Below are positions 2,766 through 21,842 of a stretch of DNA of 23,120 nt, one piece after another. This DNA is from a virus. The first letter of the stretch is position 1; every line of letters begins with the position of its first letter. The stretch covers positions 1 through 23,120 of the IMG/VR virus record IMGVR_UViG_3300008107_000828. One strand, 5' to 3'. Position numbers and translations under genes: made by a program. The notes below the pieces were generated by a model, which worked only from the letters and a program-made list of their open reading frames with translations, had not been told where the DNA came from and made no database searches.

Positions 2766-5023
2766 TGGCTAAAGGTACCGAGAAGCTCTATAGGACATTT
2801 GTTAAGGGGATCGTTACTGAAGCCTCTCCTTTAACTTATCCTGAAAATGCTTCTATAGATGAAGATAACTTTGTATTAAATAGAGATGGTTCTAGATCTA
2901 GACGTTTAGGTGTAGACTATGAACTTGACTACTATTTAAAAGCTACAGGATTAGGCTCATCTACTATTACTACAGGAAAGCAGTCATTCCATAGGTGGGA
3001 ATCCCCTGGTGGAGATACTTCTGTTTCTATTGGAGTTATTCGTATTGCTGATAGACTTTGGTTTATTGACTTACTTACAACTAATCCTAGTAACAACTTC
3101 CTTAATAGTGGTAATTATATTACGCTTACAGGTTTAAACAAAGCGGATATTGATACTGCCGTAATTAATAATAGTTTAATTGTTTCTTCTTCTGATCTAG
3201 ATGCTCCGATTCTTCTTACCTATAATGTTACTGCTCAAACAATTTCTCAACAAGAAATTACTCTTAAAGTTAGAGATATCTGGGGAGTAGATGATGGTTT
3301 AGAGTTAACTGAAAGACCTTCTTCTTTAAGTGATACTCATAAGTACAACCTTAGAAATCAAGGTTGGAGTTCTAACATAACTAATGATAATGATACTAAA
3401 GATGCTTTACCTTATCTTTTTGCAGGAAAATCCTATTATCCAAGTAACTCTGACTTATGGACTTTAGGTAAAGAAACAAATATAAGTTCTTCAGATTATG
3501 ATAAATTTGATAGAAATTTATTTGATCGTTCTGCTGTTTATACTGGATTAGCTCCTAAAGGTTCTTTTATTATAGATGCTTTTACTAGAGGAAACTCTAG
3601 AATGACATCATCCGATGTTACTACAGGATTACCTACTGATCAAGAATCTGGTAATATTAGTACTGTAGCTGCTTATGCAGGTCGTATATTTTACTCAGGT
3701 GTTACTTCTAGTGTATTAGATCCTGATGGTAGATCTCCTAATTATAGTGGATATGTATTTTTTAGTCAAGTTATTACTGAAAATTCTAAACTAGGTTTTT
3801 GTTACCAAGATGCAGATCCAACTAATCCAGATATTAGTGATCTAATAGATACAGATGGAGGTACTATACAGATTCCAGAGTGCTCTAGAATTGTTAAAAT
3901 TATTCCATCAAGAACTTCTTTACTTGTATTTGCAGAAAATGGTGTATGGGAAATCTTTGGAGATACTAATGGATTCGTAGCTACTTCCTTTCAAGTGAGT
4001 AAGATTACTACCTTTGGTACAAGTAATGCAAAATCAGTTGTAAATGCAGGTGGTAACTTTGTATACTGGGCAAAAGCAGGTATAGTTTTACTAAAACAAG
4101 ATGATGTATCTGGTAGATATATTGCTCAAAACTTATCACTAACAACTATTCAAACTCTCTACTTAGGTATTTCTGAATTAGGTAAACAATACTGTAAAGG
4201 ATTCTTTGATGAAAGAGAAAATAGAATTCGTTGGTTATATAATAGTACTGATACTTATAGTACAGAAAATTCTATTAATAGATATAATAGAGAACTAATA
4301 TATGATATTACTTTAGGATCTTTTTATACTAATACTATATCAAATTTAGTAAGTAATTCACCTTATGTAGTAGACTATATAGATATTCCTGGATACTCTG
4401 TAGCAACTGCAGATACTGAAGTTGTTGTAGGTAGTGATACTGTTATTATTACCTCTGGTACTCCTGTAGTTATTACTGAAGCACAAGTACAAAATAGAAC
4501 ATCACAATTTAGTTTTTTAACAATGAATGGTACTTCTTTTACTTTATCTAAATATAGAAATACTACATTTTATGACTGGGTTACTGCTAGTGGTAGTATT
4601 GGAATAAACTACTCTAGTTACTTAGTGACTGGTTACGAGTTATTTCAGGATCTTCTTAGAGAAAAAACAGTGCCTTATATTTTCTTTTACTTTAGACGTA
4701 CAGAAAATGGATTTGAAACAGATGGTAGTGGTAATCTAATTTATACGGATCCTTCTGCATGTTTAGTACAATCTCAATGGAGTTGGGCTAACTCTGCTGC
4801 TAGTGGTAAATGGGGTACTCAGTTTCAAGCTTATAGACTTTTAAGAAATTATATCCCTACAGGTGCTGAAGATGAATTTGATTATGGTGAATCTGTTATT
4901 GTAACTAAAAACAAACTAAGAGGTTCTGGTAAATGTTTAAGTCTTAAGTTTAACTCAGAAGCGGGTAAAGATATTAAAATCCTTGGATGGGGTGTTACTG
5001 GAACAGCACTGAATAATCCTTAA
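2765..5023 (+). CDS. Tail nozzle / tail tubular protein B-like (T7 gp12-like)
   Basis: The 752-aa protein has the N-terminal signature of podovirus nozzle proteins: YRTFVKGIVTEASPLTYPEN, then NFVLNRDGSRSRRLGVDYE (residues about 10-55). In T7, six gp12 copies form the tail nozzle below the gp11 adaptor. The long middle is beta-rich with repeated aromatic-ended strands (IGVIRIADRLWFIDLL, SRTSLLVFAENGVWEIFG, GGNFVYWAKAGIVLL), as in the beta-propeller of this family. Length is close to T7 gp12 (794 aa). TAATG junctions at both ends couple it to its neighbours. A nozzle assignment is well supported by motif, size and order. Confidence 0.82.
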   Translation: MAKGTEKLYRTFVKGIVTEASPLTYPENASIDEDNFVLNRDGSRSRRLGVDYELDYYLKATGLGSSTITTGKQSFHRWESPGGDTSVSIGVIRIADRLWFIDLLTTNPSNNFLNSGNYITLTGLNKADIDTAVINNSLIVSSSDLDAPILLTYNVTAQTISQQEITLKVRDIWGVDDGLELTERPSSLSDTHKYNLRNQGWSSNITNDNDTKDALPYLFAGKSYYPSNSDLWTLGKETNISSSDYDKFDRNLFDRSAVYTGLAPKGSFIIDAFTRGNSRMTSSDVTTGLPTDQESGNISTVAAYAGRIFYSGVTSSVLDPDGRSPNYSGYVFFSQVITENSKLGFCYQDADPTNPDISDLIDTDGGTIQIPECSRIVKIIPSRTSLLVFAENGVWEIFGDTNGFVATSFQVSKITTFGTSNAKSVVNAGGNFVYWAKAGIVLLKQDDVSGRYIAQNLSLTTIQTLYLGISELGKQYCKGFFDERENRIRWLYNSTDTYSTENSINRYNRELIYDITLGSFYTNTISNLVSNSPYVVDYIDIPGYSVATADTEVVVGSDTVIITSGTPVVITEAQVQNRTSQFSFLTMNGTSFTLSKYRNTTFYDWVTASGSIGINYSSYLVTGYELFQDLLREKTVPYIFFYFRRTENGFETDGSGNLIYTDPSACLVQSQWSWANSAASGKWGTQFQAYRLLRNYIPTGAEDEFDYGESVIVTKNKLRGSGKCLSLKFNSEAGKDIKILGWGVTGTALNNP

Positions 5024-11168: not shown

Positions 11169-13124
11169 ATGGCAACACCCTCTTTTTCTAAACAACTAAA
11201 TATTGTAGATCCTCAGTTTACTCCTCCAGTGAGTAAAGCAGGACTTATAGAAGGTGAAAAGTATAGTAATCTAGCAAATACTCTTAAGATGGGTGTTGAA
11301 TTTGCTACTGACTATTCAAAAAAGTCTACTCTTAAAGAGTTAGAGTCTGATTTATCAACAGAATCTGAAAAGTATATTGCACAGAGCCCTTCTTATCAAG
11401 GTCTTTTAAAGAATAATATTGAAAGTCTTGAAGCTGAACTAACTCAAACTAAAGGCAATCCTAATTTAGCTCCTGATGCTATTGATGTTAAAGTTAAAGA
11501 GATTCAATCACAACTTAATACAGAAACTCAAAGATTAACTAATGCTAGAGATCAAGGTACTATTACCCCTTTAGAATTAGAGACTCGTTTAGATCGTATT
11601 ACTCGTGATAAAGTAGCTCAGAATCCTATGTTTAGGAAAGAGATTATTGCTCATGGAGCACAAACTAAAGATTTATTAGGTATTTCTGGTATTGTTAAAC
11701 AAGACATAGACTACTACAATAAACTAGATCAAGCTAGAAAAGAAAGAGAAACTCGTATCTATAAGTTAGCAGAAGATTACAAATTAGATATTGTAAACGA
11801 CCCTCAATTTAGAAACTTAGATGGTACTACAAACTTACTAGCTGTAGAAGCTGAAGGTAATAAACGAAGAGGCTACATGGGTGTCAAACAAATGGGAGAT
11901 ACTCTAGCTGGTATGAAAGATATTGAGACTAAACTTAAAAAAGAAGATATTCTTAATAATGATTTACCTAATAAGTTTTTACAAGGTAATATACTAACTC
12001 TTCAAAATGAAGTAAATACTTTATTTAATATGCCTATTACTGAAGCTAACTATACTGAAAGACTCCGTTCATTAGAAGATGCCATTCAAAGAGGAAAAAT
12101 GTCTATAAACGGAATGACAGGTAGATACCGTAATGATAAAGATATTGCTTGGATTGCTGATGAATATAATAATATGGCAGATCGTTTACGAACTAACTTT
12201 AAAGATATTAAGAGTGGTAAAGAGTTAAATGATTTCTTTACTAATCAGTATAGTGCTATTGACTCTAAACAGAAGCTAGGTTTATCTCAAATGGTTAATA
12301 TGGCCGAACATAATTGGAGAATGAACATTATTGAGAAAGCAGGCCCTACACTATCTGCTACTGAGAAAACTAACTTAATGTCTACTACACTGGTACTAGC
12401 TAATCAATTTAGTTTAGGTCAAGCCTCTAGAAATATACAACTTTCTGATCAAGTTTTAACTGATACCTTTGGTAAAAAACTAACTAGTGGTCAAACTCAA
12501 GGTGATATTTTAGTTAAACAAACAACTGATTTGATATTAAAAACAGATGTAAAGGATCCTTCTTTTGAGTATAACTCTAATACTCTTGGTAATCTTTTAA
12601 AATCTCAACATATATTCATTAACTCAGGAACTATTTCTAGTAATGAAAAACTTAAAGAGTCAGATAAAGTAATGTTAACCTTAGGTAACTCTAAACTTAG
12701 AGCTAAGAATATTCAGTTCTCAGAAGATGTAAAAGGTGATATTACTGACTTAATTCAAACTTATGCTAAAGATGTAGATACAGAAATTACAAAACTCAAA
12801 GGTAGACCTGATGGTATAACAGTTAGTTCTTCACCTGATGGTACACTTGTTGCAGTAAAAGATCCTAGTGTTAAAGTAGCTAATGAAATGGATCAAAGAA
12901 ACTACATTAATAAGTTTAATGGTGTTATCATTAATCGTATTAATAATAGTTTAAAAGCCTATGCTACTTTATACAATATGGATACTAAAACAGCAGCTCC
13001 TGAGTTCCTAAGTAAGTTCTATGGTAGTACTTTTAGTAACTTACAATCTGTAAAAGATCAAGTAGACACAACTCCTGGTCTAACAGATAAGCAAAAAGAA
13101 GCTAACAAAATCCTAGGAATGTAA
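11169..13124 (+). CDS. Ejection / internal virion protein, 651 aa (gp15-like role)
   Basis: The product starts at ATG 11169 after AAGGA with 8-base spacing and is predicted mostly helical, with long coiled-coil stretches in residues 55-200 (LKNNIESLEAELTQTKG, EIQSQLNTETQRLTNARDQG). There is no signal peptide or membrane segment. Its size is near that of T7 gp15 (747 aa) and it lies within the core-protein set between the giant protein and the transglycosylase. The order here (14-like, giant 16-like, 15-like) differs from T7 (14, 15, 16). The assignment rests on size, helical character and position. Confidence 0.6.
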   Translation: MATPSFSKQLNIVDPQFTPPVSKAGLIEGEKYSNLANTLKMGVEFATDYSKKSTLKELESDLSTESEKYIAQSPSYQGLLKNNIESLEAELTQTKGNPNLAPDAIDVKVKEIQSQLNTETQRLTNARDQGTITPLELETRLDRITRDKVAQNPMFRKEIIAHGAQTKDLLGISGIVKQDIDYYNKLDQARKERETRIYKLAEDYKLDIVNDPQFRNLDGTTNLLAVEAEGNKRRGYMGVKQMGDTLAGMKDIETKLKKEDILNNDLPNKFLQGNILTLQNEVNTLFNMPITEANYTERLRSLEDAIQRGKMSINGMTGRYRNDKDIAWIADEYNNMADRLRTNFKDIKSGKELNDFFTNQYSAIDSKQKLGLSQMVNMAEHNWRMNIIEKAGPTLSATEKTNLMSTTLVLANQFSLGQASRNIQLSDQVLTDTFGKKLTSGQTQGDILVKQTTDLILKTDVKDPSFEYNSNTLGNLLKSQHIFINSGTISSNEKLKESDKVMLTLGNSKLRAKNIQFSEDVKGDITDLIQTYAKDVDTEITKLKGRPDGITVSSSPDGTLVAVKDPSVKVANEMDQRNYINKFNGVIINRINNSLKAYATLYNMDTKTAAPEFLSKFYGSTFSNLQSVKDQVDTTPGLTDKQKEANKILGM

Positions 13125-13784
13125 ATGGATAAAAATAGTTTAGCCAATATGTATGCTGATTGGATCGTTAAAAACTCCAATAAAAAAGGAACATCTGAGT
13201 TTAACACTGTAGCTGATGCTTATAAAGAGACGCTACAATTAATAAGGGGAGGACCTTCAAATGATGAAAAAACTATTCCTAGCACTAGTGTTTCTAGTGT
13301 TGATGACATCAGCAAAAAAACCGAACAAGAGGTTTCAAATGTAGAACCTACAAAGGTTAGTATGTTAGGGAAGTTACCTAAGTTTATTTCTGATGCTAAT
13401 GCGGGTGAGGTTGACAAGAACCTTATGCCTAAATTAAAGAAACAAGAAACAGGTAATAGACATATTGATCCAACAACAATGCAATTGATTAAATCTTCTA
13501 AAGGAGCTGAGGGAGTTACTCAAGTAATGCCTGCTACTGGTATAGATCCAGGGTATGGAGTTAAACCTTTACAGAATAACTCTGAACAAGAGTTTACTCG
13601 TTTCTCTACAGACTATATTAAAGCTATGTTAAAAGAGTTTGATGGTGATACAGAGAAGGCTTTAGCGGCTTATAATTGGGGACCTGTAGTACTTAAGGCT
13701 CATATTAAGAAGCATGGAGATAAATGGAAAGAGAAGCTACCTAGTGAAACAAAGAACTATGTAGCCTCTATTATGGGGAACTAG
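13125..13784 (+). CDS. Lytic transglycosylase (SLT-type) virion protein
   Basis: The 219-aa protein cleaves peptidoglycan glycan strands, probably to open the cell wall during DNA ejection. Residues 103-190 hold the SLT motifs: KKQETGNRH with catalytic Glu108, KGAEGVTQVMPATG (127-139), and ALAAYNWGP (179-187). Residues 9-37 (YADWIVKNSNKKGTSEFNTV, then DAYK) match a short motif common in phage core proteins. Residues 42-95 are a low-complexity linker. The start directly abuts the previous stop, with AGGA 6 bases upstream. There is no signal peptide in this frame, but a second frame inside the linker encodes one (see 13261). Its stop shares CTAG with the opposing gene. Confidence 0.85.
   Translation: MDKNSLANMYADWIVKNSNKKGTSEFNTVADAYKETLQLIRGGPSNDEKTIPSTSVSSVDDISKKTEQEVSNVEPTKVSMLGKLPKFISDANAGEVDKNLMPKLKKQETGNRHIDPTTMQLIKSSKGAEGVTQVMPATGIDPGYGVKPLQNNSEQEFTRFSTDYIKAMLKEFDGDTEKALAAYNWGPVVLKAHIKKHGDKWKEKLPSETKNYVASIMGN
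13261..13344 (+). CDS. Nested signal-peptide-like ORF inside the transglycosylase gene
   Basis: In the +1 frame relative to the transglycosylase, an ATG at 13261 follows AGGGGAGGA (13245-13253) at ideal spacing. The 27-aa ORF begins MMKKLFLALVFLVLMTSA and continues KKPNKRFQM before TAG. This is a textbook N-terminal Sec signal: basic n-region, a hydrophobic core of about 12 residues and a plausible cleavage site after TSA. The strong ribosome binding site plus such a peptide is unlikely by chance. It may be a small membrane peptide in its own right, the start of an exported transglycosylase made by frameshifting at the A7 run at 13314-13320, or the remnant of a gene altered by an indel. Confidence 0.5.
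   Translation: MMKKLFLALVFLVLMTSAKKPNKRFQM
13314..13320 (+). other. A7 run matching a -1 frameshift heptamer (A_AAA_AAA)
   Basis: In the frame of the nested signal peptide the codons are GCA AAA AAA, so the heptamer A AAA AAA has the X XXY YYZ phasing of -1 slippery sites. After a -1 slip the next codon is ACC at 13320, exactly the transglycosylase frame at Thr66. The fused product would be 174 aa: 20 residues of signal region plus transglycosylase residues 66-219. A weak stem, AGGTT/AACCT (13330-13349), lies 9 bases downstream. Use of the site is inference. Confidence 0.35.
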
Positions 13785-14286: not shown

Positions 14287-15894
14287 TTAAATTTCACAAG
14301 AACCAGCAGTACATGCTAGTGTTTGTTGGCCTGTTGTATTATCTTCTACTTCTAAGAAGTCTGCCCAATCTATACGACTAGGAGTCTTAGCAAGAAGTTC
14401 CTTGTATTGCTCTTCAGTACAATCTTCGTAAGGAGCTTGTTGATATGTATGATTAGAATGTGGTAAGAAAGATACACCACTAATCTCATCAAAATGTTTC
14501 CATACCCAAGCACCTACTTCAGGCCACTCTTCATCCTTAACTGAGATAGTTACAGATGGTTTATGCTCACACCAATGACGCTGATATACTAACCATATTT
14601 CTAATTGCTCTATAGCAGTCTTATCGTTCCTAAGGATAGCACCTTTAGGGGCTTTCATAGGGAAACTAAATACTGCAGTACTGTCAGGACGGAATACTTC
14701 ATCCTCTACTGTGACTCCCATTGCCTTGAGGTAATCGTAGATCGGATCCTTTTTATCCATGCGTATGCGTCTAGTATAAAAGTCGTTGTGACGAGCGTGG
14801 ATACCACTAGCGGAATCAACCAACTGTGACACAGTACCTGAAGGTTTAACGCAAGTAATAGAAGCAGAAGGTGCGATATCAAATTTCTTCGCATATTCCA
14901 GGATAATCTCTGAGCATGGATTGGTTCCGTAGCTGAGAGTCGGATCGCGTCTTCCCCACTTATTTGCTTGATTCTGAGCAGCAACACGATTAAAGATTCC
15001 TCGTTCACCTGATTTTGACTTAACCAAACTGAGCCACTCTTCCATGAAAGTTTCGCTATCGGGTTTTTCTGTATAGGCGACAGAGTTATTGGCAAGTCCT
15101 CTATGTGAATTATCATTGTACCATGCTCCTGTTTTAGCATCTCTCATACGTTTATCAGTAAGATTTGAGAGTGAAATAAGAGCAGAGCGTCTTACTCCTC
15201 CTACAACTACAATCTCACCTATCATACACATAATATCGTGTACTTCAATTGAATTTAACTTACGACCCTTAGCCTTTTTAAATGACTCTACTACAAAGTC
15301 AAAGAGTTTCTTGAGTGGTTCAGGGCCACTGGCACGACCTCCAAATACTTTAAGTCTTGCTCCCGCAGGTCTTACTTTAGAGAAGTCAAATGTAGGTATA
15401 TCACCTTCCCATAAAGAAGATAAGAGTTTCTTAAAGGCTTTAGCCCACCCTAGTTTACTATCCTCAACAAAGATAACATCATCTACATATTTTAATTCAG
15501 AAGGTACTTCAGGAAGTTTGTCTATCTCTTGACGTTCACAAGAGAATCCAACTCCTGTTCCGTTCATGAGTATATATAAAGCTTCACTAAAAGCACGTTT
15601 ATTATTAACAGCAAGATAGCTACAATTATAAGCAGCGATATTATCTCTTTCACAGGCTTCCCCAGCAGTCATGAGTAAACGCATAGAAGGCATAACTTCT
15701 AGGTTTAAGACTGAGTTATGTAAGTCAGCCCACTCTGTTGTATCTAATTCAACTTTAGTTTTAAGATATTCAGTTAAACGGGTTACTGTTTCTTCCCAAT
15801 TTTCTCTACGTTTCTTTTCAGGCATATATCGAGCATACCTGCTCATTGCTATTACTTCTTGGTATACACTTGGTAAACTACTCATAAGTATCAT
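14287..15894 (-). CDS. Class II (adenosylcobalamin-dependent) ribonucleotide reductase, internally shortened
   Basis: This enzyme converts ribonucleotides to deoxyribonucleotides for phage DNA synthesis. Visible parts are AAYNCSYLAV with Cys91 (equivalent to C119 of the Lactobacillus leichmannii enzyme), YGTNPCSEIIL with the thiyl-radical Cys327 and Glu329, SITCVKPSGTVSQLVDSASG (345-364), WCEHKPSVTISV, and the C-terminal redox pair in LACTAGSCEI (Cys528, Cys533). At 535 aa it is far shorter than the 739-aa monomeric model. NPCSEIILE runs directly into YAKKFDIAPSA, so the segment with the second catalytic cysteine (C419 equivalent) seems absent. Start: ATG 15894 or the ATG at 15885; AGAGGA precedes both. 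Confidence 0.85.
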   Translation of the reverse strand: MILMSSLPSVYQEVIAMSRYARYMPEKKRRENWEETVTRLTEYLKTKVELDTTEWADLHNSVLNLEVMPSMRLLMTAGEACERDNIAAYNCSYLAVNNKRAFSEALYILMNGTGVGFSCERQEIDKLPEVPSELKYVDDVIFVEDSKLGWAKAFKKLLSSLWEGDIPTFDFSKVRPAGARLKVFGGRASGPEPLKKLFDFVVESFKKAKGRKLNSIEVHDIMCMIGEIVVVGGVRRSALISLSNLTDKRMRDAKTGAWYNDNSHRGLANNSVAYTEKPDSETFMEEWLSLVKSKSGERGIFNRVAAQNQANKWGRRDPTLSYGTNPCSEIILEYAKKFDIAPSASITCVKPSGTVSQLVDSASGIHARHNDFYTRRIRMDKKDPIYDYLKAMGVTVEDEVFRPDSTAVFSFPMKAPKGAILRNDKTAIEQLEIWLVYQRHWCEHKPSVTISVKDEEWPEVGAWVWKHFDEISGVSFLPHSNHTYQQAPYEDCTEEQYKELLAKTPSRIDWADFLEVEDNTTGQQTLACTAGSCEI

Positions 15895-15964
15895 ATTCCT
15901 CTAATTCGTTATCGGTTTCTTTTAGTAATCTATCTAGATTCTCTTCAATTTTATCTTGAAACAT
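15878..15964 (-). CDS. Possible 28-aa acidic ORF between DUF3310 and reductase genes
   Basis: A short ORF starts at ATG 15964, eleven bases after the DUF3310 stop, and ends by overlapping the reductase start. It reads MFQDKIEENLDRLLKETDNE and ends with YDTYE. It fills the only gap between these genes. The ribosome site is weak (GGTG directly upstream). It could be a coupling leader for the reductase rather than a functional protein, or just spacer sequence. Confidence 0.35.
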   Translation of the reverse strand: MFQDKIEENLDRLLKETDNELEEYDTYE

Positions 15965-20847: not shown

Positions 20848-21842
20848 TAGTTATACCTTGAAGTAAATAATGATTTGATTTCTCCATCAAAGTTTTGTAG
20901 GTTAGGTTTACTAGATGATAGTCTTCCTGTCCTAGCTACACATTGATTAAGTTGTCCGTATATCATTCCTTCATCCCAGTTAAGTTGCTTAATTAAATTA
21001 ACTAATCCTTCATAATATGTTGACAATCTTTTCTCTAGTGTAGAGCGAAAGAGTAGAGTCTCAATTATTTCTTTAGCTTGTTTAGAACCTCGTAACGACT
21101 TAAGAGTATTCTCATCTGTAGAGTATAACCCTTCTTTCATTAACTCAGATCCTTTTAAAGGATTTACGAGTCTTGGGAAAGAGACTGTGTAATCTTCCCA
21201 TCGTTCCTTTGGTTGACCCACTCTACTGCCTGTCTTAAAAGTACCGATAACCACTCGACGCTTAAGGCTGATGTCCCCACCATATAAGAAAGCACTAAGA
21301 TGATCAGTGCTGTTAGGGTTAAACTGAGGACAAGTATGGTGTTGATAAAGTGATTCGTCAATCTTATCAATGTATGTAGCAAGTTTTTCTCCTTCATTAA
21401 TACTCTGTTTAGTATCATATAGAAGACCATTAAACTCCATCTCTTGTAAGACTAACAGATCTTGATTATGTAAGCTGATCAGTCTTTTTAAATGAGGTAC
21501 AGTTTCTATCTGTTCTAGTTGTTTAAGATATACTTGTTCAGTTAGTTTGATATCTTGTGCTAGATATTCCACCAATTGGCAGTCCCATATCCTTTTGTCA
21601 GTAAAGTCTATTTGATATCGTTTGAGCCAGTGTAGGTCGAATTTAATATTGAATCCAACCAGAAGTTCGCATATATTAATTTGATCCTGGATCGTATCAA
21701 GTTTAGTTTTGTACGGAGCATCATCGTATTCAATACTGTATAAGCCATCTGTAGTTCCTACATAACAAAGTTTATTAGTTCTATCAAAGGGATTACCTTT
21801 GTTAGATATTGTTGTTTCAACGTCAAGAGTTAAGTAGCGCAT
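20847..21842 (-). CDS. DNA polymerase family A, N-terminal (exonuclease/thumb) part
   Basis: The 331-aa product covers the 3'-5' exonuclease and thumb. Exo I is LTLDVET (Asp7, Glu9), Exo II LVGFNIKFDLHWL (Asp69) and Exo III EYLAQDIKLTEQVY (Asp97). Later parts look complete: FNPNSTDHLSAFLYGG (174-189), RSTLEKRLSTYYEGL (266-280) and GQLNQCVARTGRLSSSKPNL (296-315), ending LFTSRYN just before where motif A should begin. Exo II to Exo III is only 28 residues; in T7 (D65, D174) it is 109 and in Klenow (D424, D501) 77, so about 50 or more residues seem lost. Proofreading may be impaired. Confidence 0.85.
   Translation of the reverse strand: MRYLTLDVETTISNKGNPFDRTNKLCYVGTTDGLYSIEYDDAPYKTKLDTIQDQINICELLVGFNIKFDLHWLKRYQIDFTDKRIWDCQLVEYLAQDIKLTEQVYLKQLEQIETVPHLKRLISLHNQDLLVLQEMEFNGLLYDTKQSINEGEKLATYIDKIDESLYQHHTCPQFNPNSTDHLSAFLYGGDISLKRRVVIGTFKTGSRVGQPKERWEDYTVSFPRLVNPLKGSELMKEGLYSTDENTLKSLRGSKQAKEIIETLLFRSTLEKRLSTYYEGLVNLIKQLNWDEGMIYGQLNQCVARTGRLSSSKPNLQNFDGEIKSLFTSRYN

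Follow-up and report, generated by a model that had tools for sequence, protein, structure and literature searches.

An out-of-frame leader ahead of a slippery heptamer may give a phage transglycosylase both a virion-borne and an exported form

Introduction

How might a single phage gene send the same muralytic enzyme to two destinations? Programmed frameshifts in bacteria and phages are known mostly to vary the C-terminus of a protein, and −1 programmed frameshifting, overlapping lysis genes and endolysins made in two forms are each already known. The question is raised by a gene for an SLT lytic transglycosylase in a 23,120-nt stretch of viral DNA (IMG/VR record IMGVR_UViG_3300008107_000828; hereafter the window). 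An earlier note, made from the sequence of this stretch, had proposed that the locus may give a virion form of the enzyme in frame 0 and an exported lysis form by way of a second reading frame and a −1 slip.

Results

The transglycosylase gene and its surroundings

The features of the locus are collected in Table 1.

Table 1. Coordinates of the features at the transglycosylase locus of the window
Feature	Position	Strand	Basis and remarks
651-aa ejection-protein-like protein	11169..13124	+	Counterpart fused to SLT in L025-L035 and L132-L148
219-aa SLT lytic transglycosylase ORF, frame 0	13125..13784	+	ORF list, Pfam, PHROG; presumed virion/ejection form
N-terminal module YADWI..N..KKGT.EF.TVA.AYK	13125..13244	+	Matches L012-L016
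Ribosome binding site AGGGGAGGA of the +1 ORF	13245..13253	+	Read directly
Overlapping +1-frame leader ORF MMKKLFLALVFLVLMTSAKKPNKRFQM, then stop	13261..13344	+	Read directly; conserved in L003, L004 and L073
LFLALVFLVLM, the leader's hydrophobic core, preceded by n-region MMKK	13273..13305	+	Hydropathy KD15 2.2
A_AAA_AAA slippery heptamer in leader phase	13314..13320	+	Codons GCA AAA AAA at 13312-13320
Predicted 174-aa leader-SLT fusion	13261..13784 (13261-13320, then 13320-13784)	+	−1 slip
Catalytic glutamate E108 (KQETG) of the SLT domain	13446..13448	+	Alignment and SLT-family comparison; conserved in relatives

The 219-aa protein matches the Pfam SLT family (PF01464; 1.7e-7, 31.3 bits against a cut-off of 21.3) and solved SLT enzymes, and the PHROG families that it matches are virion structural, internal virion protein and endolysin families. 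The phage is a Zobellviridae-like podovirus, and within its structural cluster the gene comes after those for the 651-aa protein and for one of 1768 aa. As in internal virion proteins, the SLT stands beside ejection proteins here and is fused to one in relatives, and this family context suggests that the frame-0 form is present in the virion. Residues 1-40 constitute a module that also stands at the N-terminus of large, otherwise dissimilar proteins of other phages (L012-L016), which are probably virion proteins; the module is possibly a packaging or core-docking motif.

Judged by the tail protein, the closest cultured relatives are the Methylophilales phages MEP401/402; MEP402 and ctOsX528 carry other genes at the place of the SLT and are uninformative on the leader. 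A search of plasmids and genome contigs for the SLT returned distant SLT proteins only. A comparison with the nearly identical L001/G001 revealed three pieces missing from the window: 276 nt (a multiple of three) at 14899/14900 inside the ribonucleotide reductase gene, approximately 180 nt at about 15956-15964 near the start of that gene, and 150 nt at 21570/21571 near the start of the DNA polymerase gene. These represent either strain variation or assembly, and the SLT region is identical.

A leader ORF that runs into a slippery heptamer

The second frame is present exactly as the earlier note had read it at 13245-13344: a Shine-Dalgarno (SD) sequence, a start codon at 13261-13263 (with a second ATG at 13264) and a +1-frame leader. 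The leader has an n-region and a hydrophobic core, and a plausible cleavage site lies between MTSA and KK in the window; the signal-peptidase site is poor in the leaders of L004 and L073. An N-terminal transmembrane segment is predicted in the leader-SLT fusion only, not in the frame-0 form.

The A-run is a heptamer of the X_XXY_YYZ type in the phase of the incoming frame, as in known −1 frameshift sites. A −1 slip would re-read A13320 and go on at ACC, Thr66 of the frame-0 ORF, and the predicted fusion of 20 + 154 = 174 aa would retain the catalytic E108; the frames and lengths proposed earlier are borne out by the sequence. The unshifted frame has 27 codons and, as had also been noted, stops at 13342, 22 nt past the slip site. 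The sole other SD-led, strongly hydrophobic +1 ORF of the window (MKEKIEFVGYIIVLILIVQKILLIDIIEN, 4209-4298) lies inside a tail gene and is without a slippery heptamer.

Conservation of the leader in relatives

The amino acid sequence of the SLT is identical to that of the window in L001 and L002, 90% identical in L003, 67% in L004 and about 60% in L073. In L003, L004 and L073, which also have the split gene, the SD, an MKKL start followed by a hydrophobic stretch, the in-phase heptamer and a nearby stop are all kept, with the heptamer reading A_AAA_AAG in L004 and L073. Despite this conservation, the frame-0 linker has strongly diverged across window/L003, L004 and L073. Moreover, the window and L003 differ by three substitutions within the leader ORF, all of which change the amino acid in frame 0 and are silent or conservative in the +1 frame. 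The alignment of homologues that the earlier note had proposed as a check therefore came out in its favour: the signal frame, SD and heptamer are kept together and the frame-0 linker is not.

Wider relatives have the SLT joined to the C-terminal end of the ejection protein (L025-L035, L132-L148). The 758-aa fused clade (L132-L148) has the SD AAGGAG, a leader beginning MK(P/H)LLLSIILAV and an A_AAA_AAA heptamer. L099, in which the fusion to the ejection protein is made by a different linker, has the leader MKTKLKYLLLLLILFPPSLEVEQ followed by ACA AAA AAA (full ORF MKTKLKYLLLLLILFPPSLEVEQTKKQI, then stop). In the 880-aa clade (L025-L035, L083), a hydrophobic +1 ORF has ATA AAA AAG at its end, and a clean SD-ATG was not found for it.

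We scanned all three frames of 31 loci for leaders by strict requirements (SD, start, hydrophobic segment and N-terminal K/R). Such leaders were found only in the window, L004, L073, L099, L132, L134, L141 and L145, invariably in the +1 frame and invariably passing through an in-phase A_AAA_AAR heptamer, at a distance of 57-64 codons from leader start to catalytic Glu. As in the window, an SD precedes the leader in the other seven and in L003. Many more distant SLT loci among the 31 were without a leader; that of L125 has poor SD spacing, fails the strict test and serves as a lead only.

Other arrangements around the enzyme

In L126 (911-1435), a 175-aa SLT has its own SD-ATG-MKTLMLTIMSVATITST leader in the SLT frame, overlapping the end of the upstream virion gene. 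Although this leader is below the strict hydropathy threshold, the SD, the ATG and the leader all lie in the SLT frame, and from its sequence L126 apparently encodes an exported SLT that would need no shift.

Another arrangement is seen in L118, L136 and L138-L140, where there is no ATG, GTG or TTG in the SLT frame ahead of the catalytic Glu. The SLT is therefore reachable only by a shift at the A7 run from the frame of the ejection protein, which implies that, in at least part of the family, heptamers next to the SLT serve for shifting. The slip site of these loci is CCA AAA AAA, preceded at 10 nt by an SD-like motif and accompanied by a 12-bp stem-loop; such an arrangement would yield an ejection protein-SLT fusion through a −1 slip. 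A hydrophobic ORF is also present in L118 and L136; its frame is not one that a −1 slip would connect to the SLT.

In two oyster phages, PQ867852 (L064:2165-2318) and PQ867841 (L065:2183-2336), the frame annotated as lysozyme can be prolonged upstream across the final part of the virion gene and then takes in a hydrophobic stretch, and the annotated start may be too late. We rejected these phages as support, given that the extension is without a convincing SD or start.

Frameshift stimulators

Every clade examined outside that of the window (880, 759, 758 and L118/L136) has an SD-like motif upstream of the heptamer, at a distance of 9-10 nt and against a background of 4-7%. Two of them, 758 and L118/L136, also have a stem-loop (z −2.4 to −5.1) located 3-7 nt downstream of the heptamer. 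In the 758-aa clade, its stem is GTCTAYAG/CTRTAGAC, with one pair occurring in C-G, U-G and U-A versions; in L136, L138 and L118, the sequence differences within the 12-bp stem likewise preserve pairing. The window, L003, L004 and L073 were searched for the upstream motif and for a stable stem-loop, and neither was found; the shift efficiency of this clade may be low. At −1 frameshift sites a stimulator is usual but not obligatory, whether an SD-like motif about 10 nt upstream, a stem-loop 5-8 nt downstream or both. In Escherichia coli, A_AAA_AAA is reported to be much less shift-prone than A_AAA_AAG (PMC5009743), V_VVA_AAR heptamers are among the most efficient shifters, and roughly 61% of heptamers show some shifting even when a stimulator is absent (PMC4066793).

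Chance expectation and selection on the overlap

Chance was assessed by synonymous shuffling with the frame-0 protein fixed, by the genome background and by scans of the synonymous rate. An SD-led +1 ORF of equal hydrophobicity arose in 6% of shuffles for the window and 0.7% for L004; one that also crossed an in-phase heptamer arose in 6.6% (window), 1.3% (L004), 0.26% (L073), 8% (L099) and 0.08% (L134). Across 81,535 codon-frame positions in 14 contigs there were 14 such ORFs, five of them at the SLT site, where five of the six that cross an in-phase heptamer are also located. Taken on its own, the leader ORF of the window is not significant and could be due to chance; given the sequences of its relatives, a chance origin is unlikely.

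Selection was measured as pairwise synonymous divergence, corrected for amino acid, with P values from column permutation; these are approximate because the permutation ignores local rate variation and the clades comprise only 4-6 sequences. In the window clade, the observed/expected ratio across 38 codons was 0.35, the third lowest of 187 windows (P=5e-5), and this was unchanged without L003. The ratio at the overlap was 0.38 in the 880-aa clade (the lowest of 859 windows, P=9e-4) and 0.51 in the 758-aa clade (P=3e-3), in which the pair of 21-codon windows with the smallest ratios in the whole gene lie at the SD and start (0.11) and at the slip site and stem-loop (0.20). The heptamer is thus conserved and synonymous change around it is reduced, as in known −1 frameshift sites.

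Discussion

What do these elements do together? We think it quite likely that the locus is dual-coding, with an internal +1 leader joined to the SLT by a −1 slip. Translation in frame 0 would give the 219-aa transglycosylase with its virion-type N-terminal module. A second ribosome entry (SD 13245-13253, ATG 13261) would start the Sec-type leader MMKKLFLALVFLVLM, and at A_AAA_AAA (13314-13320) a fraction of the leader ribosomes would slip by −1 and rejoin frame 0 at Thr66. In the resulting 174-aa product, the virion module would be swapped for an export signal or a membrane anchor; ribosomes that do not slip would stop 22 nt further on and release a 27-aa peptide. One locus would in this way probably supply the enzyme in two forms, one borne by the virion and the other exported.

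Our best guess for the role of the exported SLT is cleavage of glycan strands from the periplasmic side, assisting rather than replacing an M15 endolysin at lysis. In the near-identical contig G001 (L017:5309-6280), genes for a 56-aa and a 121-aa membrane protein are followed by one for an M15 peptidase endolysin, approximately 20 kb upstream of the SLT; these three genes are likely the lysis cassette, and the M15 endolysin is also found in G004, G005 and G011. Because this endolysin lies elsewhere in near-identical and sister contigs, it is unlikely that the exported SLT is the sole lysin. Of the two forms proposed by the earlier note, the exported one keeps the support of its conserved leader elements, but its casting as the lysis enzyme is doubtful beside a separate M15 endolysin.

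In the main rival reading, the +1 ORF would be a separate gene, embedded in another as phiX174 E and lambda Rz1 are, for a membrane peptide of 27-30 aa such as a small holin, antiholin or lysis regulator, and the A-run would merely encode Lys-Lys. The SD, start, hydrophobic segment and stop do form a complete small ORF in every member, the window clade is without frameshift stimulators, and synonymous suppression indicates coding constraint and is uninformative on whether a shift occurs. However, the tail after KK is unconserved, with 0-9 residues (none, QI, PLSLQ, PNKRFQM, KYLNRSLKM), whereas the heptamer and the entry into the SLT are conserved, and the distance to the catalytic Glu is nearly constant. 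In addition, sister clades carry stem-loops and SD-like motifs at the slip site, and the leader of L126 is placed directly in the SLT frame. We therefore regard a stand-alone peptide as unlikely.

It is also conceivable that the ORF has no function and arose by chance, its hydrophobicity following from a frame-0 linker that is rich in Ser/Thr and uses NNT codons: where such codons abound in a genome, +1 frames easily turn out hydrophobic, and 6-7% of the synonymous shuffles of the window gene yield an equally good ORF. Against this, equivalent ORFs are far rarer in the shuffles of L004, L073 and L134 (1.3%, 0.26% and 0.08%), synonymous change is suppressed in three clades, and strict leaders occur solely at the SLT site, each running through an in-phase heptamer; we consider this origin very unlikely. 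A further possibility is that slippage on the A-run takes place during transcription, in place of a ribosomal frameshift, and joins the leader to the enzyme with the same protein product; the A7-A8 runs of the window, L132-L145 and L118/L136 could slip. We judge this to be very unlikely, because SD-like motifs and stem-loops at fixed distances act on ribosomes, and the run in L004, L073 and the 880-aa clade stops at A6 before a G, which is shorter than the nine-base runs considered for slippage in bacteria (PMC5009743). Finally, although homopolymers are error-prone in principle, the one-base indel that the earlier note had offered as an alternative, by which an assembly error merged or split two overlapping genes, is practically negligible, because the run at 13314-13320 reads A7 in all three assemblies of this phage (the window, L001 and L002) as well as in L003, and L004 and L073 keep the architecture with a different run composition.

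Returning to a leader that is joined to the SLT by a slip, it seems rather probable that this Zobellviridae-like family reverses the usual logic of frameshifting, in that an out-of-frame export start would lead, by way of a slip, into the enzyme of the host gene and so yield virion-borne and exported forms. The arrangement appears to have been re-wired several times (a leader with a slip, a leader in frame, and an ejection protein with a slip to a startless SLT), with the slip site staying beside the SLT. If this is true, a shift that exchanges the N-terminus would send the same enzyme from one gene to two destinations, and annotation pipelines would wholly miss the second form. It would become directly testable whether virion muralysins of phages also act from inside the cell. 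Furthermore, an out-of-frame, SD-led leader running into an in-phase A_AAA_AAR ahead of an enzyme domain is a signature that can be searched for in other genomes. In the open-access literature searched, we found no description of a −1 shift that exchanges the N-terminus, and hence the destination, of an enzyme; to our knowledge, such a shift is new.

How does this locus compare with known systems? The class and phase of the heptamer (A_AAA_AAG type) are like those of −1 frameshifting in dnaX and the IS3 family. The layout of dnaX, with an SD-like motif upstream and a stem-loop downstream, is matched by the 758 and L118/L136 clades but not by the window. Whereas the dnaX and IS products have a common N-terminus and different C-termini, the products predicted here have a common C-terminal enzyme and different N-termini. 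In Sec-exported or signal-arrest-release endolysins of the P1 Lyz and R21 type, a muralytic enzyme bears an N-terminal hydrophobic signal or anchor. The hydrophobic N-terminus is alike here, but the signal is in another frame and would be joined by a shift, and a separate M15 endolysin is present. The lysis genes phiX174 E, lambda Rz1 and MS2 L each overlap another gene in a different frame; they resemble the leader in being overlapping hydrophobic ORFs but stand alone, whereas the leader runs into the enzyme domain of the host gene. In SLT ejection proteins of the T7 gp16 type, the SLT is likewise attached to or beside ejection proteins (PMC8954989); in contrast to that type, the SLT here is C-terminal or a separate gene, and an alternative exported form is predicted. 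Two enzyme forms are made from one gene through an internal in-frame start in Ms6 lysA (PMC3111421) and LysIME-EF1 (PMC7098653). In those endolysins the second start removes the N-terminus, whereas at the locus described here an out-of-frame start would supply a new one.
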